From contig JAJFFZ010000058.1 in the NCBI GenBank assembly GCA_021776395.1, positions 1-63,624 of the forward strand: a stretch of 63,624 nt of DNA, written 5' to 3'. The translations under genes and the position numbers were made by a program. The notes beneath the pieces were generated by a model, which was given only the letters and a program-made list of their open reading frames with translations, searched no databases and had not been told where the DNA came from. The first letter of the stretch is position 1; every line of letters starts with the position of its first letter. Source of the stretch: Hyphococcus sp. GTDB taxonomy: Bacteria; Pseudomonadota; Alphaproteobacteria; Caulobacterales; Parvularculaceae. This document shows, in pieces, positions 3,008 through 34,215 of the stretch.

Positions 3008-4243
3008 TTAGCTCAGCGAAAATTTCAGAAACTTGATCGCGTCAAAATCCTGAACGCCGCCGCCGACGCGTTTGGTGGTGTAGAACAACACAAACGGTTT
3101 TGCCGAATACGGATCGCGCAATACCCGCACGCCGACGCGGTCGACAATCAGATAGCCGCGCCGGAAGTCGCCAATCGAAATCGCGTGACTGGCGGTGGCG
3201 ATATCGGGCATGTCTTCGGCCTCCGACACCGGATAACCGAGCAGCCGCGCCGGCTCGCCCGGCCGGACATTAGGCTGCCACAGATAATTGCCGGCAGAGT
3301 CCTTGAATTTGCGCAACTGTCCGAGGACGGAACGGTTAAGCACGAACCGGCCATTGGCGCGGAACGCCTGTTTCGGTGCATAGATGAGGTCAAGCAATAC
3401 GTCCGACGGATTGGACGCCGGGAAACCGCCGTCAACGCCGGTGGCGATATAACCAAGCTCGCCCGCCGCCTTCACGCTATCTTCCGCAATCGTGTAGGAC
3501 AAAAATCCTTTGGGTTGATTGACGCCGTCGCCGGTGACAAACGCCGCCGATTCCTGCACCGCAAACTCGCTCTGGACTTCGTCAGCCAACCATTGGTCGA
3601 TATCGACAATCGAATCGTCGAGCAGTGTCTGGCTCGCCGCCGGCATTGCGTAAAGCTCCATGGTCGGAAAATCGATGGCGGTAATGGTCGGCGATGTGGT
3701 TTCAACACGCGCGCCAGTCTCGCCAACCCAGCCTGCGGCGCCGTCGCCATTGGAGACGGGTTTGCGGAAAATATTGGCGCCGATTTCACGGATGCTCGCA
3801 ATCTGGCGGATCGGCGAGATGTCTTTCACCGCCGCGGCGATCATCGCCTCGGTCTGTTCCGGCGCCAGATAGCCGCCCTCCGGGTCGGTTCCGGTATTCA
3901 GGGATTTCGCCTCCAGCGTGGTGATCGCCGTCGCATCGCCAATGCGCATATAGCGCTGGAACGCGGCTTTGGTTTCATCGGGCAGCGCGCGCGCTGTTCC
4001 ATCGAGGCGCGGGCGTTGGCCTTTCAACGCAATACGGTCAACAGCGGCTTTTTGTTCGGTGACGGCGTCGTTGATGCGGTCGATTTTGTCGCGCAGAACG
4101 ACATCGTCTTTGCGTTTTTTCTCCAGCGATTTCAGGCGCTGGTCATTGGCGTTTTTGAACTGTTCAAACGCGCCCAGAAACTCACGCATTGCCGCGCGCA
4201 CATCCGCGCCGCCTTCGGTTCCGGCTTTGGTTTCGATAGTCAT
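3008..4243 (-). CDS. GTA major capsid protein, HK97 fold (orfg5 type)
   Basis: A 411-residue HK97-type capsid protein. Residues 1-85 form a charged helical delta/scaffold region (for example EQFKNANDQRLKSLEKK), normally removed by the prohead protease. The mature part then starts with the LNTGTDPEGGYLAPEQ motif typical of this family, followed by the HK97 fold to the C-terminal FDAIKFLKFSLS. It packs the 4-5 kb DNA fragments of GTA particles, as known for the family. It lies directly downstream of the protease, as in phage HK97 and RcGTA. Confidence 0.95.
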   Translation of the reverse strand: MTIETKAGTEGGADVRAAMREFLGAFEQFKNANDQRLKSLEKKRKDDVVLRDKIDRINDAVTEQKAAVDRIALKGQRPRLDGTARALPDETKAAFQRYMRIGDATAITTLEAKSLNTGTDPEGGYLAPEQTEAMIAAAVKDISPIRQIASIREIGANIFRKPVSNGDGAAGWVGETGARVETTSPTITAIDFPTMELYAMPAASQTLLDDSIVDIDQWLADEVQSEFAVQESAAFVTGDGVNQPKGFLSYTIAEDSVKAAGELGYIATGVDGGFPASNPSDVLLDLIYAPKQAFRANGRFVLNRSVLGQLRKFKDSAGNYLWQPNVRPGEPARLLGYPVSEAEDMPDIATASHAISIGDFRRGYLIVDRVGVRVLRDPYSAKPFVLFYTTKRVGGGVQDFDAIKFLKFSLS

Positions 4244-23449: not shown

Positions 23450-24139
23450 ATGACCACACAAACCTACGATGCTGAGAACGCCAATCCAAGGCGCGACCAG
23501 GGCTTCACCACATCCGAACCGGCGCCAGACAACAAACGCAAACTCTCCCGAACGCCTTATGTCTGGGCAATCCTTAGCGTCTGGGGCTACGCCGCTTTCG
23601 CCCTGAGCCAGAACGGCGTCTTTCAAAGCACAGCGGCAACGCCGCCCATCGCCGTCGCCATCGCCGCGCTTGGCCCCGGGCTGGTATTTTTATCTGTATA
23701 CAGTGTTTTAGCGCCATTGCGGCGTTGGGTCGATGGGCTCGATCTTGCGGAAGTCATCGCATTACAGGCCTGGCGCATTTTAGGCTTTACGTTCCTCGCC
23801 TTTTGGGGACTTGGCGAGCTCCCCGCAGTGTTCGCCTTGCCGGCCGGCATTGGCGACATGGCCGTCGGCCTGGCCGCGCCCGCCGTCGCGCTCGCCGTAG
23901 AGCGCCGCAGCAAAGGCTGGCGCATCAGCGCCTATGGGCTGATCGCCGCCGGGAGTTTCGATTTTATCGTCGCCTTCGCAACCGGCATCCTGTCGCGCCA
24001 AGGCGGCGCGCTCGATTTCGACGGCCATGTCGCTTCAAGCCTGCTTGGCGTTGCGCCCTTAAGCCTATTCCCGGCCTTCATCGTCCCGGCGTTTTTTATC
24101 CTGCATATCATCGCGCTGCTCAAACTGCGACGCGCATAA
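23450..24139 (+). CDS. Predicted integral membrane protein under MarR control
   Basis: 229 residues with a 35-residue hydrophilic start and about six membrane segments, e.g. VWAILSVWGYAAFAL, FTFLAFWGLGELPAVFALPA and FPAFIVPAFFILHIIALL. I do not recognise a family with certainty. It is preceded by AAAGGAG and by the MarR-type dyad, and is followed by a GC-rich hairpin. It is probably induced together with marR; the chemical signal is unknown. Confidence 0.75.
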   Translation: MTTQTYDAENANPRRDQGFTTSEPAPDNKRKLSRTPYVWAILSVWGYAAFALSQNGVFQSTAATPPIAVAIAALGPGLVFLSVYSVLAPLRRWVDGLDLAEVIALQAWRILGFTFLAFWGLGELPAVFALPAGIGDMAVGLAAPAVALAVERRSKGWRISAYGLIAAGSFDFIVAFATGILSRQGGALDFDGHVASSLLGVAPLSLFPAFIVPAFFILHIIALLKLRRA

Positions 24140-24149
24140 ATGAAACAAA

Positions 24150-24176
24150 CCCCGGCGGGATGATGTTCCGCCGGGG
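24150..24176 (+). terminator. GC-rich hairpin after the MarR-controlled gene
   Basis: CCCCGGCGGGA and TTCCGCCGGGG pair with one G-T wobble around a short loop, ten bases after the stop codon. There is no T-run, so termination is likely but not certain. Confidence 0.5.
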
Positions 24177-24215
24177 TGCGTAGCGCACCTTATGCATGCG
24201 TTGAATCCCATGCCG

Positions 24216-24325
24216 CCATCCTTCGCGACGGGCCTTTGGCCCTCCTCAGGATGAGGTTTTTAGTATTTTAAACCTATACCTCATCCTGAGGAGCGAACCG
24301 ATAGGTTCGCGTCACGAAGGATAGG
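24216..24325. repeat. Palindromic repeat (family 4), copy 2, long form
   Basis: Ends CCATCCTTCGCGACG and CGTCACGAAGGATAGG with internal CCTCAGGATGAGG / CCTCATCCTGAGG pair around an AT-rich centre. It lies between two convergent genes. The short form is at 8724-8781. Confidence 0.88.
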
Positions 24326-24379
24326 CCGTTTCTTGGGCCATAAAATATCAGCAACGCCGTATGCAAGCCTTCATTCGCT

Positions 24380-25231
24380 CTACTTCGCGCGGCGCCATGG
24401 CGCGGCGATGTAACGGCCTTTCTGGTGCGCGCGAAACAGAAAATATAACGCCAGAATGAGCCCGATGATGATGGTGACCACCGACGCTTCAACCCCGAAA
24501 GCGCCGCCGGTCATCAGCTCCGGGCCAGACATTGTCGTGTCGAGATAACCCTCTTGCGCGAAGCCGGAAACCGCGCCGCCATAAACGCCGCCAAGGGTGA
24601 AGTTCCAGCCCGCATGAAGGCCGATCACCACCCACAGCCGGCGCGTCACCATATAGACCGCCGCCAGTAAAACCCCCGCCTCAAGCGCGATGGCAAGCGC
24701 GGCGGTGAGCGTTGCATTGTCATTGCCAAGATGCAGCGCGCCAAACAAAGCCGCGCTGAACAGCAGGGAAATCCAGGTGCCGAGCCATTCCTCGATGATG
24801 CGGAAAATTACGCCGCGCAGCGCGATTTCCTCAATAAACCCGGTGACCACCGCCGCAATCAACGGCGCGGCAAGAAGGTCGATGCTGCGCACGCCGTTGA
24901 CCTCGAAATATCCCAGTACATAAAGAACACCGATCACCGATGAGATGAATCCTGCGCCAATCAGCATGCCGATAAATAATTCCGGGACTGCATAACGGGC
25001 GGAAAATTCCGTCACCGCGCGCCCTTCAATAAGCCGCACCAATACCCAGTAAGAAAAGCACGCAGCAAAGATTGCAAAGCCTGCATTCAACGCCGCTGCA
25101 GCATTTGCATTTTCTATCGCCAATCTAGCGGCTACGGCCTGCCCAAAACTTCCCGCCGCAAACACAAAGCCGAGCAGCAAGGCAATGCCGAGGACAAGTC
25201 GCGTCAGCGGGTATCTGATAATTGTTGTCAT
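24380..25231 (-). CDS. CPBP family intramembrane glutamic protease
   Basis: 283 residues from MTTIIRYPLTRLV; an upstream TTG that overlaps the SH3 lipoprotein stop would add eight codons. About eight membrane segments. The CPBP (Rce1-like) motifs are present: EEIALRGVIFR (EExxxR), FGALHLGN (FxxxH) and GLHAGWNFTLGG (HxxxN). It is a predicted membrane-embedded protease of unknown substrate. It follows a secreted SH3-type lipoprotein gene closely and may form an operon with it. Confidence 0.9.
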   Translation of the reverse strand: MTTIIRYPLTRLVLGIALLLGFVFAAGSFGQAVAARLAIENANAAAALNAGFAIFAACFSYWVLVRLIEGRAVTEFSARYAVPELFIGMLIGAGFISSVIGVLYVLGYFEVNGVRSIDLLAAPLIAAVVTGFIEEIALRGVIFRIIEEWLGTWISLLFSAALFGALHLGNDNATLTAALAIALEAGVLLAAVYMVTRRLWVVIGLHAGWNFTLGGVYGGAVSGFAQEGYLDTTMSGPELMTGGAFGVEASVVTIIIGLILALYFLFRAHQKGRYIAAPWRRAK

Positions 25232-25251
25232 CTTCGGCGCCTCTGCTTCGT

Positions 25252-25974
25252 TCAAAGCCCAAGCAAGTTGTCATTTACGGCGGCCGGCGCAGCAACTGAA
25301 CCGGCGCGGCGCCAGGCGACGCCGTCATGACAGGCCGCATCCGCCCATTCATCTTTTTCGCTGAAAATACTGATCCGCTGGGTAAACTCAACGCACCGGA
25401 CCGGGCGCCGTCGGGGGCCGCCGGCAAGCAGCAGTTCCGTTCCCGGCGCCTTGACGGCCAGGCTTTTATGGATATAGCCGCGCACCTTGCCATCAACCGC
25501 CGCCAGCATCCATGTCCCATCAGTCAGCCTACCGACGATTTCAACGCCCGAACCGGCCGGCAACACTTCGGCAATCTTATATTGCGTGCCCGGGCCGATG
25601 CGGATGTTGGAATTGCGGGTGAGGACATAAAGCCCAAGCTCGGTCTCCATCACATAGCCGACATCGATATCGGCGCGCGCAAGCGCAATGCGCGCATTCG
25701 GATCAGGCCGTAGGTTGGCGATGGAGTACCCGCCCGGCATCACAATACCCGCCGCCCGCACGCCGCGCCAGCGCTGCGGCTTGCCGCTCTGCACCGCCGC
25801 AATGACAGCGCCGCCAAGCGCCTTGCGATCGCTGGAAGCAAGCTTCACCGACAGGGCTGAGCCAGCAGCGAAATTCTCCGCTTCATCGCTAAGGCCGAGC
25901 GATGACAGGCTGGAGCAGCCGCCAAGCGTGAGCGCGGCAAGGCAAGCAAGACAGAAGGAGCGCGGCCAAAACAT
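25252..25974 (-). CDS. SH3-domain lipoprotein
   Basis: 240 residues from MFWPRSFCLACLAALTLGGC; the lipobox LGGC puts the lipidated Cys at residue 20. After a linker, residues about 120-185 form an SH3b domain (LTRNSNIRIGPGTQYKIAEV, then GSGVEIVGRL and GYIHKSLAV). The C-terminus has a short Cys-containing segment (RRPVRCVEF ... ADAACHDG). Such proteins usually bind peptidoglycan or peptides in the periplasm. The stop is next to the start of the CPBP protease gene. Confidence 0.85.
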   Translation of the reverse strand: MFWPRSFCLACLAALTLGGCSSLSSLGLSDEAENFAAGSALSVKLASSDRKALGGAVIAAVQSGKPQRWRGVRAAGIVMPGGYSIANLRPDPNARIALARADIDVGYVMETELGLYVLTRNSNIRIGPGTQYKIAEVLPAGSGVEIVGRLTDGTWMLAAVDGKVRGYIHKSLAVKAPGTELLLAGGPRRRPVRCVEFTQRISIFSEKDEWADAACHDGVAWRRAGSVAAPAAVNDNLLGL

Positions 25975-26064
25975 AAGCGGGGACCTTTCAAACAACATAG
26001 CTTCCAGGTTGGCATATTTAAGGCCAGATGTGGAGGGCGTCGGTGACGACGTCATAAAAACTGG

Positions 26065-26388
26065 TTAATCGAGAAACGTCCGTCCCTCACGGTCCTCGAT
26101 TTCGACGATCCACAGATCCGGGTCGATGGCGATCTCTTTCTTGAGCCAGGCGTCGATCTTGTCTTCGCTCAGATCATCTTCAAACGGCTCGCGCCAGACC
26201 GGGGCGCCATCAAGGTCGCGGCTCTGAACGAATAGCTTCGCCGCCCCGCGCCCAAGATAGATTTTGACCGCGACCGCACCCGCATCAGGGTCGCCCTTGC
26301 GCGCCACCGTTGCAAATGCGCCCTCGCCTTGCGCCCGGCGCATATGCGCGGTGACGCGGATTTCAGTTTTAAGGCGCGGTTCGGTCAC
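26065..26388 (-). CDS. DUF1491 family protein
   Basis: 107 residues, starting at GTG that overlaps the stop of the upstream gene (GTGA). The pattern LKTEIRVTAHMRRAQGEGAF (start), DPDAGAVAVKIYLG and the end DPDLWIVEIEDREGRTF is that of DUF1491, a small alphaproteobacterial family of unknown function. It is translationally coupled to the sterol desaturase family gene. Confidence 0.88.
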   Translation of the reverse strand: MTEPRLKTEIRVTAHMRRAQGEGAFATVARKGDPDAGAVAVKIYLGRGAAKLFVQSRDLDGAPVWREPFEDDLSEDKIDAWLKKEIAIDPDLWIVEIEDREGRTFLD

Positions 26389-27218
26389 GGCCCCGCATCC
26401 CGCGGCGCTGGCTTCGGGATCGCCGCATGGCCGGGTTTGCGAAACGGGTCGAGCGCAAGATTGGCGAAACTGTCGGGCATGATTGCTTCCGGGCCTTCAA
26501 TGCCAAAAATTTCATCCCTCCGCAGGCGATCGGATGGGGTAAACGTGCTGAACATCTGGTCCCTCACAGAAAAAATCGTACCGAGATTGGTGTCGAGATA
26601 TTCCGGCGCCGCTGAGTGATGCAGGCGAGGAATATGCGGTGTCACCAGGATGCGCGAGGCCACGCGTTCGACGGATGGCGCCAGCGCAATGTTGGTATGG
26701 GTGAAGGTGTTGATCACAGACAGCACCACAAAATTGACCACAATCGCCTCCTCCGGCAGGCCGAGGAGGAACACCACCGGCAGGTCAATGACCGAGCGCA
26801 GCAGCGCCTCAAACGGGTGAAACCGCAGCGAGGTGGTTGCATCAATATGCGCGTCGCCATGATGGGTGCGATGGGTGCGCCACAGAAAATACCATTTGTG
26901 TAAAGCGCGATGGACGCCATAGGCGACCAGATCAAAAGCGATGACCGCCGTCAGCGCCGTTGCCCAAAATGGCGTCGAAATCTGATTAAACAATCCAATG
27001 CCGCGCACCTCCGCGATCACCGCGGCGCCATAGGACGACAATAACGGAAGCAAGCCGAGAAGGATAAACCCGTAAAAACTCATCGATGCATTACGCACCC
27101 AGCGCGCCAGGCTGATTTTCACGCCGCGTCGCCACGGCATGATCGCTTCCAGCACCAGCGCCGACGCCAGCACCCCAAGAGCAAAATAAAGTCCCGTCAC
27201 GCCTTTGAAAAAATCCAT
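26385..27218 (-). CDS. Sterol desaturase / fatty acid hydroxylase family protein
   Basis: 277 residues with four or more membrane segments and the three His clusters of the di-iron hydroxylases: HRALHKWYFLWRTHRTHHGD (HxxxH and HxxHH), HTNIAL, and HIPRLHHS. The substrate could be a sterol-like lipid, carotenoid or fatty acyl chain in the inner membrane; nothing nearby decides this. It is followed by the coupled DUF1491 gene. Confidence 0.92.
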   Translation of the reverse strand: MDFFKGVTGLYFALGVLASALVLEAIMPWRRGVKISLARWVRNASMSFYGFILLGLLPLLSSYGAAVIAEVRGIGLFNQISTPFWATALTAVIAFDLVAYGVHRALHKWYFLWRTHRTHHGDAHIDATTSLRFHPFEALLRSVIDLPVVFLLGLPEEAIVVNFVVLSVINTFTHTNIALAPSVERVASRILVTPHIPRLHHSAAPEYLDTNLGTIFSVRDQMFSTFTPSDRLRRDEIFGIEGPEAIMPDSFANLALDPFRKPGHAAIPKPAPRDAGP

Positions 27219-27568
27219 ATTGATTGGCCTGCTGATCTCTCAATGGCGCCGGTGTTCAGCGCTTTAGCATAAAACTCTATTGCCCCTGCATGCTAGTCTG
27301 ATTTTTGAGCCGTGCAACAAACGCTACAGCTGCGCCGTTTTGGCGCATGAGCGCAAAGACTAAGCGCGAGCTGTCTGCGCCAGACACAACCATGGCGGGC
27401 TGTGCGTTGCAATCAACCTTGCCAAACTGTATCATTTTGGGAGACGGCAGGTTTGGCTGTCTCTACGGTAGGAATGGGGGAGTGAAATATTTCACGATTG
27501 CGCCGGCGTTGCGCGGTTCTGCTGCGATTGCCGGAACAATGAAACCCGTAAATCAAGGAGTGATGAGG
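27219..27568. other. Intergenic region upstream of the three mini-proteins
   Basis: 350 bp between the divergent sterol desaturase gene and the first VPEM-type gene. I see no convincing gene. The last 20 bases contain the AAGGAG ribosome site. A promoter for the mini-protein genes must be here, but I could not choose one with confidence. Confidence 0.5.
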
Positions 27569-27736
27569 ATGACGAAATATATTATAGCGGGCGCTCTGAC
27601 GCTGATGTCAACGGCGGCCTTAGCAGGCCAGGCTTGGGATGAAGTGCCGGAAATGAGCGCTGGCGCGGGTGTTGCAGCGGTTGCGTTGCTGATCGGCGTT
27701 GCCGCGATTATTCGCGAGCGCAGCAAACGTAAATAG
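27569..27736 (+). CDS. Mini exosortase substrate 1 (VPEM-type C-terminal sorting signal)
   Basis: 55 residues. I start at MTKYIIAGALTL because AAGGAG lies eight bases upstream; an earlier in-frame ATG is too close to it. A signal peptide (cleavage after LMSTAALA, residue 19) is followed by only six residues, then the motif VPEMSAG, a membrane segment (about 33-49) and the basic tail RERSKRK. This tripartite end is that of VPEID-CTERM/PEP-CTERM proteins, processed by exosortases. After both cleavages almost nothing would remain, a peptide of about 6-9 residues. It is a close paralogue of the next gene. Confidence 0.8.
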   Translation: MTKYIIAGALTLMSTAALAGQAWDEVPEMSAGAGVAAVALLIGVAAIIRERSKRK

Positions 27737-27749
27737 AGGGGATATAACG

Positions 27750-27917
27750 ATGACGAAATTTATTTTGGCGGGAGCCTTTGCTTTGATGTCGACGGCGGCC
27801 TTAGCTGGCGAGCCTTGGGTTGAAGTGCCGGAAATGAGCGCCGGCGCTGGCGTTGCCGCAGTTGCGTTGCTGATCGGCGTTGGTGCGATTATTCGTGAGC
27901 GCAGCAAACGAAAATAA
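27750..27917 (+). CDS. Mini exosortase substrate 2 (VPEM-type C-terminal sorting signal)
   Basis: 55 residues, 14 bp after substrate 1 and nearly identical in plan: signal peptide MTKFILAGAFALMSTAALA, six residues (GEPWVE), VPEMSAG, membrane segment and RERSKRK. GAGGGGA serves as ribosome site. A recent tandem duplication is evident: the C-terminal 30 residues differ from copy 1 by one position (Ala to Gly). The Trp four residues before the Pro of VPE is kept in both. Confidence 0.8.
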   Translation: MTKFILAGAFALMSTAALAGEPWVEVPEMSAGAGVAAVALLIGVGAIIRERSKRK

Positions 27918-27947
27918 ACCAACCATAAGAACGGGGAGACAATGACG

Positions 27948-28178
27948 ATGAAAAATCTTACGATCATAGGCGCGTTGGCGCTGCTTACGGCGCCTGCAAA
28001 AGCGACGGACTACATGGACTGCAATGTATCTTCAGTCACATCTGCAATAAAGAATTTGGTGGTTATTGCAGAACCATGCAACCAAGTGCCTGAAATGAGC
28101 GCTGGCGCGGGCGTGGCGGCGATTGCATTGCTGGTCGGCGTTGCCGCGATTATTCGTGAGCGGACCAAACGCAAATAG
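27948..28178 (+). CDS. Mini exosortase substrate 3 (VPEM-type, with cysteine-bearing mature part)
   Basis: 76 residues from MKNLTIIGALALL (GGGGAG nine bases upstream; an ATG two codons earlier is too close). The signal peptide ends at APAKA. The mature part before the motif is longer than in copies 1 and 2, about 28 residues, and has two Cys (YMDCNV and AEPCNQ) that could form a disulfide. The C-terminus VPEMSAGAGVAAIALLVG with RERTKRK is the same sorting signal. It is followed by a hairpin terminator, so the three mini genes form one short unit. Confidence 0.8.
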   Translation: MKNLTIIGALALLTAPAKATDYMDCNVSSVTSAIKNLVVIAEPCNQVPEMSAGAGVAAIALLVGVAAIIRERTKRK

Positions 28179-28202
28179 GCTTTGATTTCGTTAACCATTA
28201 AG

Positions 28203-28230
28203 ACGGCCCTTCACCTTCGTGGAGGGCCGT
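28203..28230 (+). terminator. Hairpin after the mini exosortase substrates
   Basis: ACGGCCCT and AGGGCCGT pair around a 12-base loop, followed by TTCCTT. Placed 24 bp after the third mini gene, it separates these from the exosortase gene. Confidence 0.7.
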
Positions 28231-28311
28231 TTCCTTGCGTGTTTTCTTAGCCGCCATACGCACCCGCGCGCAGCATGGCGTATTTCTGGCATCCCCGCAG
28301 GTCGTTAGCTT

Positions 28312-28340
28312 TTGCTTCCAGAGGCGCGCGCGGTTATAAA
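28312..28340 (+). promoter_or_regulatory. Predicted promoter for a leaderless exosortase mRNA
   Basis: TTGCTT (28312-28317) and TATAAA (28335-28340) are separated by 17 bp. Transcription would start six to eight bases later, at or next to the GTG start codon at 28346, which has no ribosome site. This would be a leaderless transcript. Confidence 0.45.
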
Positions 28341-28345
28341 TAGAC

Positions 28346-30004
28346 GTGGCTGAGACATCTTCATACCCAACAAGTGCGGCGCCCGGAAGCACGCCTGTGA
28401 TATTGCGCGGGGCGCTAATTTTAACGCTGGCGCTGATTGAGCTGCCGGTTCTGGCATTCCTTTACGACCCGATGACAATTAACGCCACCGACCCGCGCTG
28501 GCTGACGGCGCGTGAATGGTTACGGGAAATGGTCCCTGCCGCGATCTTTTTTGGCGTCGCGCTCGGCGTCTTGCTGACCCCGCAGCGGCGCGCACTGCTT
28601 GCTGATTGGCGATCGGCAGCAGCTCGGCGCGGTTGGGCGCCGTGGACGCTCGCCAACCTTATCGGCTTTGCCGTCCTTGCCGTTGCGACCGTCGCGTTTA
28701 ACGCCTATGGCGCAAGCCTTAGCAAGCCGCCTTGGGCTTTATTTGGCTTATGGAGCGTCGGCGTGATCGGCCTTTATGTTCCGTTGGCGCTGGCGTTAGC
28801 GCCGATCCCATTCTTTGTGCGACTGATAGATCGCGAAAAATGGATATTCACCCTGGCGGGAGGCGCTGCGGGATTTGTCACCGGCGCCTCGGTACTGTCG
28901 CGACAGTCCTGGAATTTTCTTTCCGAGGCCACGTTCCAGGTCTCCGCCTTTATTCTTAGCCTTTACGAAAAAGATGTGTTCGTCGATCCGGCGCGGCGCC
29001 TGCTCGGGGCGGATGGGTTCATTGTCAGCATTGCCGCCGCCTGTTCCGGCTATGAAGGGATCGGTCTGGTGACGGTGTTTTTGACAATATATCTGTGGGT
29101 ATTCCGCGCCGCGTTGCGGTTTCCGGGCGTCTATCTGATCTTGCCGGCGGGCATTGCCGCAATCTGGATATTAAACAGCGTGCGCATCGCCGCGCTGATT
29201 AGTCTCGGCGCTCATGCCTCGCCAGAGGTCGCCATCGCCGGGTTTCATTCCCAGGCCGGGTGGATGATGTTCCTGATCGTGACGATAGGCATTATGCTGG
29301 CGACCCACCACATTGGGTTTTTCCGCAACGAGACCGCGCATGCGTCAGACGCTGTGCCCGCCCCGGCCTTTCGCGAAGCGATGTTTTTACTGACGCCGTT
29401 CCTGGCGATGACGGCTGCGGGGATTGTCGCCGCCGCTTTCACCGCCGACGGTTATTGGCTTTATAGCTTGCGGGTGATTGCGATTGGCGCGGCGCTTGTC
29501 GCCGGCTGGCGGTTTTATCGCAATCTTGCCCTGCCGGAGAACTTGCGCGCTTACGCCGAGCCGGCGCTGATTGGCGCAGGCGTCGGTATTGCTTGGATTG
29601 CGAGCGATCCCGGACGCGGTGAGGCGAGCGATCTCGGCATATGGCTGGCGGGCATGCCAGCGGCGATGGCGGCTTTCTGGATCGTTATGCGCACCATCGG
29701 CACAATCCTCCTTGTGCCGATTGCCGAAGAGCTCGCCTTTCGCGGCTATCTACACCGCAAACTGATCGCCGACCGCTTTGAGGCGGTGGCTGAAGGCGCC
29801 TTTACCTGGAAGGCGTTCGTTATCTCATCAGTTTTGTTCGCGGCGCTGCACGACCGCTGGCTCGCCGGCGGCCTCGCCGGCGCCGCCTTCGCGCTCGCGC
29901 TGTATCGCTCTGGCAAAGTCTCTGGCGCCATCATCGCGCTTATGTCGGCCAATGCAGTGATCGCCTTCTGGGCGATTGCCTTCGGGCAGTGGAGTTTGCT
30001 TTAG
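28346..30004 (+). CDS. xrtE: Exosortase E fused to CPBP intramembrane protease (XrtE type)
   Basis: 552 residues, GTG start. Residues about 20-325 form an exosortase with many membrane segments and the catalytic triad in its usual motifs: Cys233 in AAACSGYEG, Arg280 in NSVRIAAL, His301 in AGFHSQAGW. Residues about 345-552 form a CPBP/CAAX-type protease with EELAFRGYLHR (Glu461, Glu462, Arg466), His502 in FAALHDRW and an Asn in MSANAV. This fusion is known as the exosortase E/protease of the VPEID-CTERM system. It would cut and transfer proteins with VPE-type C-terminal signals, here the three mini-proteins just upstream. It seems to have its own promoter. Confidence 0.93.
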   Translation: MAETSSYPTSAAPGSTPVILRGALILTLALIELPVLAFLYDPMTINATDPRWLTAREWLREMVPAAIFFGVALGVLLTPQRRALLADWRSAAARRGWAPWTLANLIGFAVLAVATVAFNAYGASLSKPPWALFGLWSVGVIGLYVPLALALAPIPFFVRLIDREKWIFTLAGGAAGFVTGASVLSRQSWNFLSEATFQVSAFILSLYEKDVFVDPARRLLGADGFIVSIAAACSGYEGIGLVTVFLTIYLWVFRAALRFPGVYLILPAGIAAIWILNSVRIAALISLGAHASPEVAIAGFHSQAGWMMFLIVTIGIMLATHHIGFFRNETAHASDAVPAPAFREAMFLLTPFLAMTAAGIVAAAFTADGYWLYSLRVIAIGAALVAGWRFYRNLALPENLRAYAEPALIGAGVGIAWIASDPGRGEASDLGIWLAGMPAAMAAFWIVMRTIGTILLVPIAEELAFRGYLHRKLIADRFEAVAEGAFTWKAFVISSVLFAALHDRWLAGGLAGAAFALALYRSGKVSGAIIALMSANAVIAFWAIAFGQWSLL

Positions 30005-30023
30005 GCGCCGTTAAAGCGACGCC

Positions 30024-30401
30024 TTATTCCTGATAATAATCACCTGACGGCGGTTGCGCCAACATGCTCATCAGGGCCTGTATGTCATCAGGCGATATCG
30101 CAGCTGCGGCGACTTGATGATCTTCGACCGAACTCCATTTCTCGATAACAATAATGGTTTCCTGCATATCAACCGCCGAAAGGATCTCATGGGAAATATA
30201 GCCATGCGCGTTCTCAATCGGTTGCACGGCCTCAGCTAAAGTTTGTTTCACTGTTTCGGCTTGTCCCGGTTGAGCCGTAAATGTGTTGATGCGCGTAATC
30301 ACGGCCTCACCACCCGGCGCCTCTGCGAACGCGCTGAACAACGATATCCCAGCAATAACTATTGCCGCGCCGGCAAACATTTTGATTCGTAACGCCGTCA
30401 T
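30024..30401 (-). CDS. Secreted protein with antibiotic biosynthesis monooxygenase (ABM)-like domain
   Basis: 125 residues from MTALRIKMFAGAAIV. A signal peptide (ending near FSAFAEA) precedes an ABM-like dimeric alpha/beta-barrel: VITRINTFTAQPGQAETVKQ, AHGYISHEILSA, TIIVIEKWSSVEDHQ. Most ABM proteins are cytosolic, so export is unusual. Catalytic activity cannot be inferred. It converges with the exosortase gene and follows the histidine kinase gene on the same strand. Confidence 0.78.
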   Translation of the reverse strand: MTALRIKMFAGAAIVIAGISLFSAFAEAPGGEAVITRINTFTAQPGQAETVKQTLAEAVQPIENAHGYISHEILSAVDMQETIIVIEKWSSVEDHQVAAAAISPDDIQALMSMLAQPPSGDYYQE

Positions 30402-30429
30402 GTGAACCTCTGAGTAAATATGCGCCAGT

Positions 30430-31731
30430 TTACGCCGCATCCGCGGCGCGGTCGCGGCGATAGGCGTTGACGCGGTCGAGCTGGCTTTGGATGTCGCAGG
30501 CCGATGGGCTGACGGCAGGGCTTTGCCCGCCGGCAAATGCGCGCCGCACCGGCAGGGTAAAGCGCGCGCTCGTGCCTTTGCCGGGTTCTGATTGCAGCCG
30601 CAAGGCGCCGCCATGCAGCTTGGCCAGCGAGAACGCCAGCGACAGGCCGAGGCCTGAGCCTTTTGCTCCGCGTACGCCATTTTGATGGGTGTCGGAATAT
30701 CGCCCACCCTGTTTGGCCAGCACCATTGCGTTCATGCCAATGCCGGTGTCGCGCACGGTGAAATCGAGCGCGCCGCATTTTTCTTCAACCGACAATTCAA
30801 TCTCGCCTTCGGCTGTAAACTTCACCGCATTGGTGAGGAGGTTGATCAGGATTTGTTTGACTACGCGCGCATCAATCATGGTTTCGGGCAGGTCGGGCGC
30901 AATATTGACCCGCAAGGAAAGTCCCGCCCGCGCCGCCTCGCTGCGGATCATCGCGGCGCATTCGCGCGCTGCCGGTCCCGGCGCGGCCAGCACGGGATTG
31001 AGACCATAGCGCCCGGTCTCCACCTTGGCGTAGTCAAACAGCGATGCGATCAGCTCTTGCAGATGCGCGCCTGCGGCATGGATATCGCCGACATATTCGG
31101 CGTATTTCTCATGCCCGAGCGGGCCATAGGTCTCCGCCCGCATCGCATCGGCAAAACCCATAATCGCGTTGAGCGGGGTTTTCATCTCATGGCTTAAATT
31201 CGCCATCAACTCAGGCGGCGCGGGTGTGGGCGTTGGATTTGATTCAGGCGATATTTGCGGCGCGGATTGCACGCCAACCGAATGCGGCATCGCCTGGCGG
31301 GCGACGCGCTCTTCGGCGATGCGCGTCTCGCGGCTTCGCGCCAACTCCTCGCTGCGGTCGCGAATGAGCGCCATCAAGCGGCCGCGGCCAAGCGGCGTAA
31401 AGGTGATTTCCGCCAGCGCCGCCGCCCGGCGCACCCGCAACAGCCGGAAATTTGCGCGCAGCCGGCTCGCCGGCGCATAAGCGCTAGTCGTCGCCGCAAC
31501 CATCGCCGCGCGCACCGCCGCACGGTCCTCCCGGCGGACAAAATCAAACAATGAGCGGCCGACCAGATTGCCCGCCGCGCCAATCATCTCCGCCGCCGAT
31601 GGCGAGACTTCCAGGAAAATGCCGTCATCATACAGCGAGGCCACTATATCGCCGGTTCCGCCGCGCCAGACCGGGCCGCCGCGCGCAGCCGAGGCGAGCT
31701 TTTTAATGAGGGCAATAGGGCGAAATTCCAT
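30430..31731 (-). CDS. PAS-type sensor histidine kinase
   Basis: 433 residues with no membrane segment, thus cytosolic. An N-terminal PAS-like domain (about 25-125, e.g. VSPSAAEMIGAAGNLVGRSLF) is followed by a Pro-rich linker, HisKA with NLSHEMKTPLNA (His181), and the ATPase domain with ILINLLTNAVKFT, DTGIGM and GSGLGLSLA. Tail residues are poorly conserved. No partner regulator is adjacent. Confidence 0.9.
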   Translation of the reverse strand: MEFRPIALIKKLASAARGGPVWRGGTGDIVASLYDDGIFLEVSPSAAEMIGAAGNLVGRSLFDFVRREDRAAVRAAMVAATTSAYAPASRLRANFRLLRVRRAAALAEITFTPLGRGRLMALIRDRSEELARSRETRIAEERVARQAMPHSVGVQSAPQISPESNPTPTPAPPELMANLSHEMKTPLNAIMGFADAMRAETYGPLGHEKYAEYVGDIHAAGAHLQELIASLFDYAKVETGRYGLNPVLAAPGPAARECAAMIRSEAARAGLSLRVNIAPDLPETMIDARVVKQILINLLTNAVKFTAEGEIELSVEEKCGALDFTVRDTGIGMNAMVLAKQGGRYSDTHQNGVRGAKGSGLGLSLAFSLAKLHGGALRLQSEPGKGTSARFTLPVRRAFAGGQSPAVSPSACDIQSQLDRVNAYRRDRAADAA

Positions 31732-31999
31732 GGGATATCAGAGGTCTGGGGCCGCTGCCTTCTTAACTATTTCGACAGATTCGTTAACGCCGGTTCACCA
31801 TGGAGCGATTGTCGTTAATAAAGACTGAATGAGCAAAAACCCCATAAAAATTGCATATTGGTCCCCGAACGCTCGAATTTGGTGATAATTCAGTTAGGAT
31901 CGTCAGCGCGGTGTTAATCGATAGGGCGGTAATGTGACGGGCATGTCGGGGGGGCTTTTGCGCGCCCGATGGACTGTCACATTCTGGGAGAAGTTATCT

Positions 32000-33037
32000 A
32001 TGTCGCGTAACAGATTGCAAAACCCGGCGAGCGCCGCTGCGTGTTTTGCCCCGCTTAGGGCCCGCCGCCGAACCGCCTCCAAACCACTGATTATCGCTGC
32101 CGCCCTCGCTGTCGGCTTTGCCGTCACCGGCGTTTCCGCCGACACGCTGGCGCAACCCAAAGACGAAGCGCTGGAGCGCGCGGCCGCCAACTATATCCGC
32201 TTTCGCGAAGATGTTTCAGCGATTGAGGCGATGACGTTTGACAACGCCAAAGTCACGCGCGAGGCGCATCGCCGCCTGGCCGCGCATGATTCTAGCGAAT
32301 TATCATCCGGCTGGGTCGCCTATGCGGCGCTGGTCGCCGCCGACACGCCGGAATTTGCCGCCGCGCTCAAGAAAGAAATGAAGAAGAAAAAACGCCGCAA
32401 CGAGCTTGGCGGCGCCAAAGGCCTGCTCTCGCATCTGGCCCAGGACCCGTCTTACGCCCGCAAGCTCCCCGGCGCCAAAAAAGCCATCGCCGCCATTCTG
32501 GCCATGACCGCCCATGACGGCGCGCGCATCGCCGCGCTTGGCGAAGCGTTCAAGACCCAGGCCTATGCGATGCAGAAAACCAAATGGGGCAAGCAACGCA
32601 TTGCCGGCAGTCAGGAACGCATCAAGGACGCCTCCGCCTATCGCCGCAACCGCGGCGCCGCGACCGCGCCGTCGCTTGTGCACTCTAGCGAAGGCGGCGT
32701 CATCGCCCCCTCGCTCGCCAGCGCCAATGCAAATTGGGACGCCAACTGGGGCGAGGATGCGCCGGCCAGCGCCATGAGCGAGAAAAACGCGCAAGTGATT
32801 ATGGACCGTGTGCTGAACTTAGCGGCGCGCTATTCCACCGGGACGCTCAATGCCACCGTCGTCAGCGCCTACGCCAAGAACAACAAATCCGACCGCTGCC
32901 TGTCGATGGCCAAGCTGACGCTCGACCAATGCATCGCCGCCACGCGCACGCCCTATGAAGAAGCGTTCTGCCTCGGCGAGCACGGCCTTAACGATATCGC
33001 CACATGCGTCGGCTGGGTCGGCGCCCCGTCATCATAA
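32000..33037 (+). CDS. Secreted hypothetical protein
   Basis: 345 residues from MSRNRLQNPAS, with GGGAG nine bases upstream. An unusually long basic N-terminal region precedes a hydrophobic signal (IIAAALAVGFAVTG, cleavage near VSADTLA). The mature part is helical and Lys/Ala-rich (KKEMKKKKRRNELG), and the last 70 residues contain four Cys (DRCLSMAKL, DQCIAATR, AFCLGEHG, ATCVGWVG) that suggest two disulfides. I do not recognise the family. It ends in front of a shared terminator. Confidence 0.75.
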   Translation: MSRNRLQNPASAAACFAPLRARRRTASKPLIIAAALAVGFAVTGVSADTLAQPKDEALERAAANYIRFREDVSAIEAMTFDNAKVTREAHRRLAAHDSSELSSGWVAYAALVAADTPEFAAALKKEMKKKKRRNELGGAKGLLSHLAQDPSYARKLPGAKKAIAAILAMTAHDGARIAALGEAFKTQAYAMQKTKWGKQRIAGSQERIKDASAYRRNRGAATAPSLVHSSEGGVIAPSLASANANWDANWGEDAPASAMSEKNAQVIMDRVLNLAARYSTGTLNATVVSAYAKNNKSDRCLSMAKLTLDQCIAATRTPYEEAFCLGEHGLNDIATCVGWVGAPSS

Positions 33038-33090
33038 AACTGGCGTCTTAAAGCTGGCGTCATAAAACTATAAACTTGCACGACAATAAA

Positions 33091-33120
33091 AAGGCCGCTC
33101 GTTATGAGCGGCCTTTTTTC
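33091..33120. terminator. Bidirectional terminator shared by convergent genes
   Basis: Perfect 10-bp stem AAGGCCGCTC / GAGCGGCCTT with a GTTAT loop, T-run on the plus side and A-run on the other. The stop codon of the minus-strand hxlR gene (33102-33104) lies in the loop. Confidence 0.88.
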
Positions 33121-33476
33121 TGCGCCCTGCGTTTGGCGCGTTGTTTGAGCTTGTGACCAACCTCGGCGATCGCCTCAAGCGCCGGCAACAAGGCGCGACC
33201 ATCGCGCGTCAGCGCATATTCGACCGAGGGCGGCGAGGTTGGCTTGACCGCGCGGCTGACAATGCCTTTTTCCTCAAGCTGTTTCAGCCGCACCGTTAAA
33301 ACTTTTGCCGAGATCGGCGGAATATCCACCCGCAGCTCGCTGAACCGGCGCGGGCCGGCGGTGAGATTCCACAAAATATTCGGCGCCCAGGCGCCGCCGA
33401 TCACCGACATGCATTGCGACAGCGGGCAATCATGAGGGACGGGCGGGCTTTGGTTTTTGCGAATTTTCAAGGCCAT
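33102..33476 (-). CDS. HxlR family transcriptional regulator
   Basis: 124 residues. The opening CPLSQCMSVIGGAWAPNILW and the winged helix RRFSELRVDIPPISAKVL, LKQLEEKGIVSRA are the HxlR signature; the first Cys residues (CPLSQC) may sense electrophiles or oxidants as in HypR/YodB-type members. It is divergent from the GST gene, and the intervening 127 bp carry two dyads. Its mRNA ends inside the bidirectional terminator. Confidence 0.93.
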   Translation of the reverse strand: MALKIRKNQSPPVPHDCPLSQCMSVIGGAWAPNILWNLTAGPRRFSELRVDIPPISAKVLTVRLKQLEEKGIVSRAVKPTSPPSVEYALTRDGRALLPALEAIAEVGHKLKQRAKRRAQKKGRS

Positions 33477-33488
33477 GAGATGTCCATC

Positions 33489-33552
33489 AGTTACCGGTTG
33501 GAAACTCTATAATTCGGTTTCAATAGAAAATCTAGTTTACAAAGGTAACTAG
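33489..33552. promoter_or_regulatory. Two HxlR-type operator candidates in the hxlR-gst divergent region
   Basis: AGTTACC-ggtt-GGAAACT (33489-33506, one mismatch between arms) and CTAGTT-n9-AACTAG (33532-33552, perfect arms). Both share AGTT/AACT half-sites. They are well placed to control both hxlR and the GST gene. Confidence 0.5.
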
Positions 33553-33603
33553 TGTTTGTAAATCAGCGCCTCATCCGCAAGCAAACCTCAAGGATTATCC
33601 TTC

Positions 33604-34215
33604 ATGAAACTCTATTATATGCCCGGCGCGTGTTCCCTCGCCTCTCATATTACCCTGCGTGAAGTCGATGCTGATTTTTCGCTTGAAAAAGTCAATGTCA
33701 AAGAACAAAAAACTGAAAGCGGCGAGGACTACTCCAAGGTCAATCCGAACGGATATGTTCCGGCGCTGCGCTTTGACGATGGCGATATTCTGAATGAGGG
33801 CGTGGCGGTGTTGCAATTCCTGGGCGAACAATATCCCGACGCAAAGCTTCTGCCGGCGCCCGGAACGCGCGAGCGCGCCCGCGTCGTGCAACATCTCAGC
33901 TTTATCGGTTCAGAGCTGCACAAGGCCTTTGCGCCGTTCTTCTCCGACACGCTTGAGGGCGAGGCGCGCACCGCCGCCGAGGAAAAAGTCGCCAAACGCA
34001 TGGGCTATATTGAAACCCTGCTTGCCGACGGGCGGACTTATCTGACCGGCGACCAGTTCACCATCGCCGACGCTTACCTTTTCGTGGTTGCAAACTGGAC
34101 GAACTTTGTCGACATCGATTTGGGCCAATGGCCGAATGTCGCCAGCTTCGCCAAACGCGTCGCCGCGCGGCCGACGGTTGAGGCGGCGATGAAGGCCGAA
34201 GGCCTGCTCCAATAA
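33604..34215 (+). CDS. gst: Glutathione S-transferase (beta class)
   Basis: 203 residues starting MKLYYMPGACSLASHI, the hallmark of bacterial beta-class GST with the catalytic Cys10. The thioredoxin-like domain contains NPNGYVPALRFDDGDILNEG (cis-Pro and glutathione-binding region), followed by the helical domain with LTGDQFTIADAYLFVV. It conjugates or reduces electrophiles with glutathione. It sits opposite hxlR and is followed closely by a tautomerase gene; likely one stress-induced unit. Confidence 0.95.
   Translation: MKLYYMPGACSLASHITLREVDADFSLEKVNVKEQKTESGEDYSKVNPNGYVPALRFDDGDILNEGVAVLQFLGEQYPDAKLLPAPGTRERARVVQHLSFIGSELHKAFAPFFSDTLEGEARTAAEEKVAKRMGYIETLLADGRTYLTGDQFTIADAYLFVVANWTNFVDIDLGQWPNVASFAKRVAARPTVEAAMKAEGLLQ

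Follow-up and report, generated by a model that had tools for sequence, protein, structure and literature searches.

Exosortases usually act on substrates that are large and many, and what the bacterial enzymes attach their substrates to is, to our knowledge, an open question. For Haloferax volcanii, a passage of PMC7157517 describes the cleavage and lipid labelling of ArtA substrates as requiring the lipid enzymes PssA and PssD, and a section heading of the same paper names artA, pssA, and pssD as syntenic in Methanosarcina. The myxosortase MrtX is presented in an excerpt of PMC11980579 as an intramembrane protease of the CPBP family that acts on a tripartite signal at the C-terminus (MYXO-CTERM). 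The locus described here, at positions 27569-30004 of a stretch of 63,624 nucleotides from the marine bacterium Hyphococcus sp. (assembly GCA_021776395.1, contig JAJFFZ010000058.1; the whole stretch is hereafter the window), is a variant of another named system, exosortase E/VPEID-CTERM. It consists of three consecutive genes for mini-proteins (minis), each ending in a VPEM motif, a helix, and a basic tail, and of a downstream xrtE gene that encodes an exosortase fused to a CPBP domain. This arrangement had been proposed in an earlier note made from the sequence alone, and its coordinates hold. New here are a partner gene of the fatty-acid hydroxylase family, a terminator-like hairpin between the minis and xrtE, and pairs of cysteines in many of the substrates at other exosortase E loci. 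A rule that the substrates of exosortase E are tiny was not found described in the literature searched (the open PMC library).

The mini-genes and their products

The three minis share one layout, in which a signal peptide ending in AxA is followed by a short stretch, the sequence VPEMSAG, a helix, and an RER(S/T)KRK tail. The spacing from AxA to VPEM is 6 residues in mini 1 (GQAWDE) and 6 in mini 2 (GEPWVE), as the earlier note had estimated for the distance between signal cleavage and VPE in these copies, and 27 residues with two cysteines in mini 3. The lengths given there, 55, 55, and 76 residues, are right for the first two minis; the third has 78 residues, or 76 when counted from the ATG at 27948. 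Purine-rich stretches that resemble ribosome-binding sites were judged by eye to lie 5' of the mini starts. The frame of mini 1 stays open upstream, where a TTG start at 27305 would yield 143 residues, and the ATG at 27569 is preferred because it matches the aligned relatives. The combination of a VPE motif, a helix, and a basic tail in a gene adjoining exosortase E, one of the marks of the VPEID-CTERM sorting domain, is present in all three. Their scores against the VPEID-CTERM model TIGR04161 are 17.4, 17.7, and 17.0 bits for minis 1, 2, and 3, below the curated cut-off of 33, and the model would therefore not name them.

The minis are real, conserved, and under selection. Their 95-nt 3' part is repeated at 88-89% identity, and in 36 minis from 11 loci the residues M1, A19, VPEM, G32, A36, A37, A39, G43, R49, and E50 are invariant, with A17 conserved in at least 90%. 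The median ratio of nonsynonymous to synonymous substitution rates (dN/dS) of the C-terminal 29 codons, which cover the helix and tail, is 0.046 (135 close pairs, all below 1; the pairs are not independent) vs 0.205 for the signal peptide. The repeat identity, the invariant residues, and the purifying selection rule out chance repeats or non-coding sequence. Within 24000-34000 of the window no RNA family was found at its gathering score. The genome itself holds no further match to a profile of the VPEM end beyond the three minis (next match, E 0.03).

The fusion enzyme

XrtE scores 240.9 bits against the exosortase E model TIGR04162 (cut-off 150) over residues 53-551, which bears out the earlier assignment, and contains the Pfam domains PF09721 (exosortase) and PF02517 (Rce1-like CPBP). 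Cys233, Arg280, and His301, which we take to be the exosortase catalytic residues, are present and invariant across 26 aligned rows. The claim that both active sites are intact therefore stands for the exosortase and fails for the CPBP domain. There the EExxxR motif (E461, E462, R466), His502 of FxxxH, and Asn536 are kept, but the HxxxN motif reads LxxxN, with Leu532 (codon 29939-29941) in place of a histidine that is found in 11 of 11 other rows of the genus and is at least 90% conserved in the 26-row alignment, which leaves the set of CPBP motifs incomplete. Judged by alignment, Leu532 would break the catalytic completeness of the domain and not its homology to the family. The histidine and asparagine of MrtX that match CPBP HxxxN are described in a passage of PMC11980579 as the oxyanion hole.

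An AlphaFold2 model of XrtE built from 26 sequences has a mean predicted local distance difference test score (pLDDT) of 85.8 and a predicted template modelling score (pTM) of 0.64. A Foldseek search with the model returned nothing at E 0.001, and a structure search by sequence gave no match. The best two of 263 chains were SpdC 6u0o (model residues 360-550; Z 8.1, 137 aligned, 3.8 A) and Rce1 4cad (residues 343-548; Z 6.0, 179 aligned, 5.1 A), with scores that are modest and reachable by chance among helical bundles. As a separate observation, the best of 60 relatives searched is an exosortase E homolog (L001/L153, G056:C21; 316.6 bits) in which a tyrosine is aligned to the exosortase cysteine and another replaces the histidine of the CPBP FxxxH motif, so that it is apparently without catalytic residues.

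SpdC presumably works as a scaffold in the SagB-SpdC complex, and its place as the top, if modest, structural match of the CPBP part suits a reading in which XrtE does not cut the minis; whole or freed of their signal peptide, they would stay in the membrane as small proteins with a regulatory or scaffolding role towards XrtE and the hydroxylase. That the helix and tail are the best conserved part, and not the exported stub, points the same way. However, the VPE motif, helix, and basic tail are the recognised exosortase signal, and recognition would conserve it too, while the exosortase cysteine, arginine, and histidine are invariant in 26 of 26 rows. On balance, uncut minis are considered unlikely.

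Distribution within the genus

The genus was sampled with 28 genomes, including Marinicaulis flavus, and relatives at corresponding loci include this species and metagenome-assembled genomes (MAGs) of Marinicaulis. xrtE is found above the cut-off in 11 of the genomes and in none of the other 17, with 12 genes in total (two in G007). The VPEM-end profile detects 37 copies in 10 genomes, every one with xrtE, and all 37 ends sit in mini-proteins, 36 at xrtE loci and one on G026:C89 away from xrtE. Minis are hence present in 10 of 11 genomes that bear xrtE vs none of the 17 that do not (probability 8.4e-7 if genomes are independent); the exception, G024, has xrtE and no minis, and its contig begins inside xrtE. 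These are the short xrtE neighbours for which the earlier note had advised a search. Long mature domains in the relatives, which it had named as evidence against a peptide product, were sought with the VPEM end, and none was found in the 28 genomes.

The loci of the genus have two to four different minis. With the AxA near residue 19 taken as the cut (scripted, with a few cuts corrected by eye), the mature part is 4-11 residues long, or 25-27 residues with two cysteines in four minis; the two-cysteine class of mini 3 is also seen in L032, L033, and L034. After the conserved AxA the residues vary in sequence and length, and some loci share identical mature parts (GEPWVE, GQAVK).

Two loci of a single MAG, L032 and L034 (G007:C47 and C37), each hold a complete exosortase E module, and their flanking genes are duplicated; two species were possibly binned together in this MAG. 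A lone mini lies near 330-510 on the minus strand of G026:C89 (L158), with the stub SIPVE before VPEM; a hydroxylase gene at 785-1690 on the plus strand is divergent from it, and no xrtE was found on this 8.5-kb contig.

Exosortase E beyond the genus

Relatives of XrtE occur in other Alphaproteobacteria, Cellvibrionaceae, Porticoccaceae, Planctomycetota, Bryobacterales, and others. Of 385 genomes sampled from the class, 4 have such a relative, with the own genome counted, as do 24 of the 198 from another alphaproteobacterial family, where 21 of the 24 have a VPEID-CTERM match. Thirteen plasmid records hold XrtE relatives, 12 of them annotated xrtE. Among five plasmid regions inspected, one has a neighbour of 57 residues named VPEID-CTERM, two have unnamed small genes (64 and 75 residues), one is without a listed small gene, and one is unannotated.

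A survey of 59 loci (11 of the genus, with L037 cut, and 48 others) found a small VPE-type gene within 2.2 kb of xrtE at 51 loci, in 81 rows. Starts were taken as the methionine closest to the motif that opens a hydrophobic stretch, and a signal peptide was found by script in 68 of the 81 rows, the longest such protein having 103 residues; the script puts some cuts a few residues early, and some of the 13 rows in which it finds no signal peptide (L098) have one by eye. Counted from the first methionine of the frame, 79 of 81 proteins have at most 110 residues, the others being L099 (143) and L115 (267). Tandem near-empty substrates recur in a gammaproteobacterial MAG (L045, three), in Planctomycetales (L049, two), and in Bryobacterales (L056, two). 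Small substrates are a trait of exosortase E and not a peculiarity of the window locus, which makes the locus less novel and the claim wider, in that the enzyme appears to handle peptides. If the survey pattern holds, exosortase E in general would be a peptide-processing and not a protein-sorting enzyme.

The motif of the 48 rows from outside the genus reads VPEI in 34, APEI in six, TPEI in three, and VPEL, APEL, VPEV, VPEF, and APEV in one each. Methionine at position 4 is found in none of them, so that VPEM is, as had been proposed, a variant motif, confined here to the genus and replaced elsewhere by [VAT]PE[ILFV].

Cysteines are absent from 22 of 34 mature parts from outside the genus, single in one, and exactly two in 11. 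Permutation gives a mean of 3.7 parts with two cysteines, and none of 20,000 permutations reaches 11, although some of the loci are near relatives. The test used 34 mature parts vs the 35, one of them empty, of the survey, and omits 12 rows in which no signal peptide was found and one (L055) without a cut. A disulfide loop would be the natural reading of the two-cysteine parts, a class to which mini 3 belongs.

Several observations accompany the survey. Minis of exosortase E at L106 (G466:C78, minus strand, near 3150, 3602, and 3944) and L123 (near 1315) have no recognisable N-terminal signal peptide, and their short N-terminal tail may be inserted without one. At seven loci of one alphaproteobacterial family (L138, L140, L141, L143, L145, L146, and L147), large proteins of one cluster, 617-1728 residues by open frame and with a CxC motif at or near the C-terminus, are encoded upstream of the mini and xrtE. 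The plasmids L189 and L190 have large proteins with SdrD_B and Ig-type domains in a position like that of the CxC proteins. An exosortase E relative at 36% identity occurs in a record titled as a Klebsiella pneumoniae MAG (L059), which is probably a matter of binning or naming.

Were the system one of ordinary exosortase sorting, the true cargo would be longer proteins encoded elsewhere and missed by the profiles, and the minis would be minor or decoy substrates. The two PEP-CTERM matches of the own genome would suit such cargo, as would the approximately 17% of sequence missing from this draft (83.06 completeness, 258 contigs). No long VPEM-ended protein was found in the 28 genomes, however, the PEP-CTERM matches, most of them weak, occur with xrtE (10 of 11 genomes) and without it (10 of 17), and small substrates hold in other phyla, all of which makes ordinary sorting quite improbable. 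In genomes with and without xrtE, Pro/Gly-rich proteins that end in the PEP-type sequence VPEPG or MPEPG (L194, L195, L196, and L197, in G011, G027, G012, and G000:C129) were seen by eye near lysozyme-like genes and, in three cases, MgtE-transporter-like genes.

The fatty-acid hydroxylase neighbour

A gene for a membrane enzyme of the fatty-acid hydroxylase/sterol-desaturase family stands divergently beside the minis in 11 of 11 genus loci with upstream sequence, that is, in 11 of the 12 XrtE loci, the twelfth being on a cut contig (Table 1). At L036 two copies each adjoin their own mini pair, and at L040 the gene sits between the minis. A profile of the linked enzymes gives 13 matches above 400 bits, all beside minis, and the next best in the 28 genomes is 246; the profile was built from these enzymes themselves, and it is the gap and not the height of the scores that is the result. 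Apart from xrtE and a histidine kinase family, no gene family but the hydroxylase is a repeated close neighbour both in most loci of the genus and in several further clades.

Table 1. Coordinates in the window of the exosortase E module and adjacent features
Feature	Position	Strand	Description
Fatty-acid hydroxylase/sterol-desaturase family membrane enzyme	26385..27218	-	277 aa; PF04116 88.4 bits, cut-off 31; divergent from minis
Mini-substrate 1	27569..27736	+	55 aa; signal peptide ending ALA, GQAWDE, VPEM, helix, basic tail
Mini-substrate 2	27750..27917	+	55 aa; signal peptide ending ALA, GEPWVE, VPEM, helix, basic tail
Mini-substrate 3	27942..28178	+	78 aa (76 from ATG 27948); 27-residue mature part with two Cys, VPEM, helix, basic tail
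Intrinsic-terminator-like hairpin	28201..28232	+	14 pairs, then T-rich tail; between minis and xrtE
xrtE	28346..30004	+	552 aa, GTG start; exosortase fused to CPBP (Rce1-like) domain
Histidine kinase gene	30430-31731	-	Convergent, downstream of xrtE

Outside the genus, the hydroxylase adjoins the minis or xrtE at four of 48 loci (L045, L046, L149, and L152), at the first two of these approximately 20-25 nt downstream of xrtE. The number of loci expected to have a hydroxylase within two genes is roughly 0.2, given approximately 3.9 such genes per genus genome, and was computed on the 41 of the 48 loci in which xrtE was re-found; the 48 loci scanned differ from those of the substrate survey by one genome (G056 in place of G584). 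Mere shared synteny is less likely, since L038, L039, and L041 keep the hydroxylase without other conserved upstream neighbours and the gene is present in other clades. In a tree with 18 genus paralogs as background, all linked enzymes from the genus group in a single clade (100/100), whereas the gammaproteobacterial pair falls elsewhere. One ancient partner is not favoured, as well-supported branches force at least two label changes, although the background is narrow, the L152 copies are long branches, and one gain plus a loss also fits. The tree suggests that the partnership arose more than once, and if the enzyme was recruited repeatedly, a functional tie between the peptide system and a membrane lipid would gain weight. 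Inspection by eye gave no convincing sign that substrates are shorter where the hydroxylase is present.

In the window copy, His197, the first histidine of the third histidine box, is replaced by proline, and Trp219 by arginine. Position 197 is histidine in the other 17 of 17 aligned rows, and the histidine boxes (HxxxH, HxxHH, HxxHH), presumably the metal-binding pattern of the PF04116 family, are incomplete in the window enzyme. Together with H532L in XrtE, H197P and W219R raise the possibility that the module is decaying in this strain and the minis are becoming relics, which is compatible with the other readings. The dN/dS of xrtE, 0.22-0.25 between the window and four relatives vs 0.14-0.18 among those relatives, fits with decay, as do the unique departures in XrtE and the hydroxylase (3 and 2 in the window, 0-2 and 0-1 in the four closest relatives). 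Distant members of the genus, however, equal or exceed the window in unique departures (up to 11 and 6), the dN/dS of the hydroxylase is raised in only two of four comparisons, the frames are open with the minis and exosortase residues intact, and assembly errors could mimic the signal. Decay is thus entertained as a possibility, though it is more probably wrong than right.

Transcription and other neighbours

The hairpin between the minis and xrtE makes the minis look like a transcription unit of their own, which would suit an excess of substrate over enzyme. An equivalent hairpin was found by script in eight of 10 other genus loci (nine of 11 with the window); the two that the script missed have one by fold (L040, bulged) or by eye (L038). 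None of the six window neighbours tested is an exopolysaccharide gene. In the window, as in eight of 11 other genus loci, xrtE is followed convergently by a histidine kinase gene, which is absent from L038, L039, and L041 and has family members farther away at L047 and L048. The window kinase has no clear membrane segment, with a best 19-residue hydropathy of 1.07.

A kinase in this position would fit an alternative reading, in which the joint action of XrtE and signal peptidase sets free a peptide of about 8-10 residues, or a disulfide-looped one, as an intercellular signal or antagonist. The product size suits a peptide signal, and two to four different minis per locus, the cysteine pairs of mini 3 and of other clades, and the mature parts that are identical across loci would fit as well. 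Yet the kinase is missing from three loci and, lacking a clear membrane segment, would be ill suited to sensing a peptide from outside the cell; among the gene families compared, no importer is a recurrent neighbour of the genus loci; many mature parts vary freely between species; and enzymes of this superfamily elsewhere presumably anchor and do not release. A free peptide is accordingly judged improbable.

Proposed mechanism

The favoured reading, held tentatively and at somewhat less than even confidence, is that of a dedicated exosortase E module that processes peptides, the product being a short ribosomal peptide on a lipid or another envelope molecule. The minis, made from what looks like their own transcription unit, would be exported via their signal peptides and stay anchored through the C-terminal helix. 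Once signal peptidase I had cut behind AxA, 4-11 residues (25-27 in the two-cysteine class) would remain as a periplasmic stub before VPEM, and XrtE would cut at VPEM via its Cys-Arg-His site and transfer the resulting peptide, about nine residues long, to an acceptor. That AxA is conserved, as are VPEM, helix, and tail, while the stub between them is short and variable, suggests cutting at both ends. The fused CPBP domain would probably remove or position the leftover helix, and the linked hydroxylase-family enzyme would modify a lipid that is the acceptor or adjacent to it. Transfer of the stub to a hydroxylase-tailored envelope lipid is proposed by analogy with ArtA, PssA, and PssD. The genes, their motif and conservation, the pairing of minis with xrtE in the genus, the hydroxylase linkage, and the terminator-like hairpin are observed; we infer that the minis are cut at either end and attached, to what acceptor, what the CPBP domain does, and that minis outnumber the enzyme.

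Several points weigh against this peptide-attaching module. Cleavage, the peptide product, and the lipid product are themselves inferred. The hydroxylase and CPBP domain of the window are altered at conserved histidine positions, through either base errors in a draft MAG or true decay, and since both look impaired the module may be partly decayed. The PEP-CTERM matches of the own genome (C129 and C162) make other exosortase traffic possible. In the alphaproteobacterial family surveyed, three of 24 xrtE genomes have no VPEID-CTERM match and four xrtE-less genomes have one, two of them above the cut-off, which indicates that the pairing is not strict there. No such hydroxylase was found at 44 of the 48 other loci in the stretch scanned, and it is therefore not a universal part of the system; the FA_hydroxylase family, moreover, has many roles.

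A more far-reaching proposal, which we hold to be rather doubtful, is that exosortase E, the minis, and the hydroxylase act as a pathway for the synthesis of lipopeptides encoded ribosomally. From the gene would come only the peptide head, whose C-terminus the protease-transpeptidase would link to a lipid bearing an amine; tailoring of that lipid would fall to the hydroxylase. If true, a protein-sorting enzyme would here be making peptide natural products or envelope lipids of a new class, and other clades would have versions looped by a disulfide.

A module that would process peptides onto an envelope molecule is of interest as the recognised matching substrates of the genome are three peptides and a candidate lipid enzyme adjoins them. 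The product should be small enough for a whole mass-spectrometry readout, which would make the chemistry of the acceptor directly testable, and the genus has a cultured member, Marinicaulis flavus SY-3-19, with minis, hydroxylase, and xrtE at its locus L038.

Comparison with known systems

The locus agrees with exosortase E/VPEID-CTERM (TIGR04162, TIGR04161) in having the fusion enzyme above cut-off, an adjoining small substrate gene, and the V-P-E, helix, and basic-tail signal. It differs in the VPEM motif in place of VPEID, in minis that score approximately 17 bits against a cut-off of 33, in the two to four minis per locus, in the linked hydroxylase, and in the terminator-like hairpin before the enzyme.

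The ArtA system of Haloferax volcanii offers a likeness in an exosortase-superfamily enzyme that depends on lipid enzymes. ArtA is not known to have a CPBP domain, its S-layer cargo is large, and the lipid enzymes are others. MrtX is not known to have an exosortase domain; its cargo consists of proteins such as TraA, and the MYXO-CTERM signal has an invariant cysteine. PEP-CTERM/exosortase A (EpsH) shares the combination of a tripartite C-terminal signal and an exosortase. That system has many longer exported proteins and exopolysaccharide genes, whereas only minis were found here, beside neighbours of which none of the six tested is an exopolysaccharide gene.

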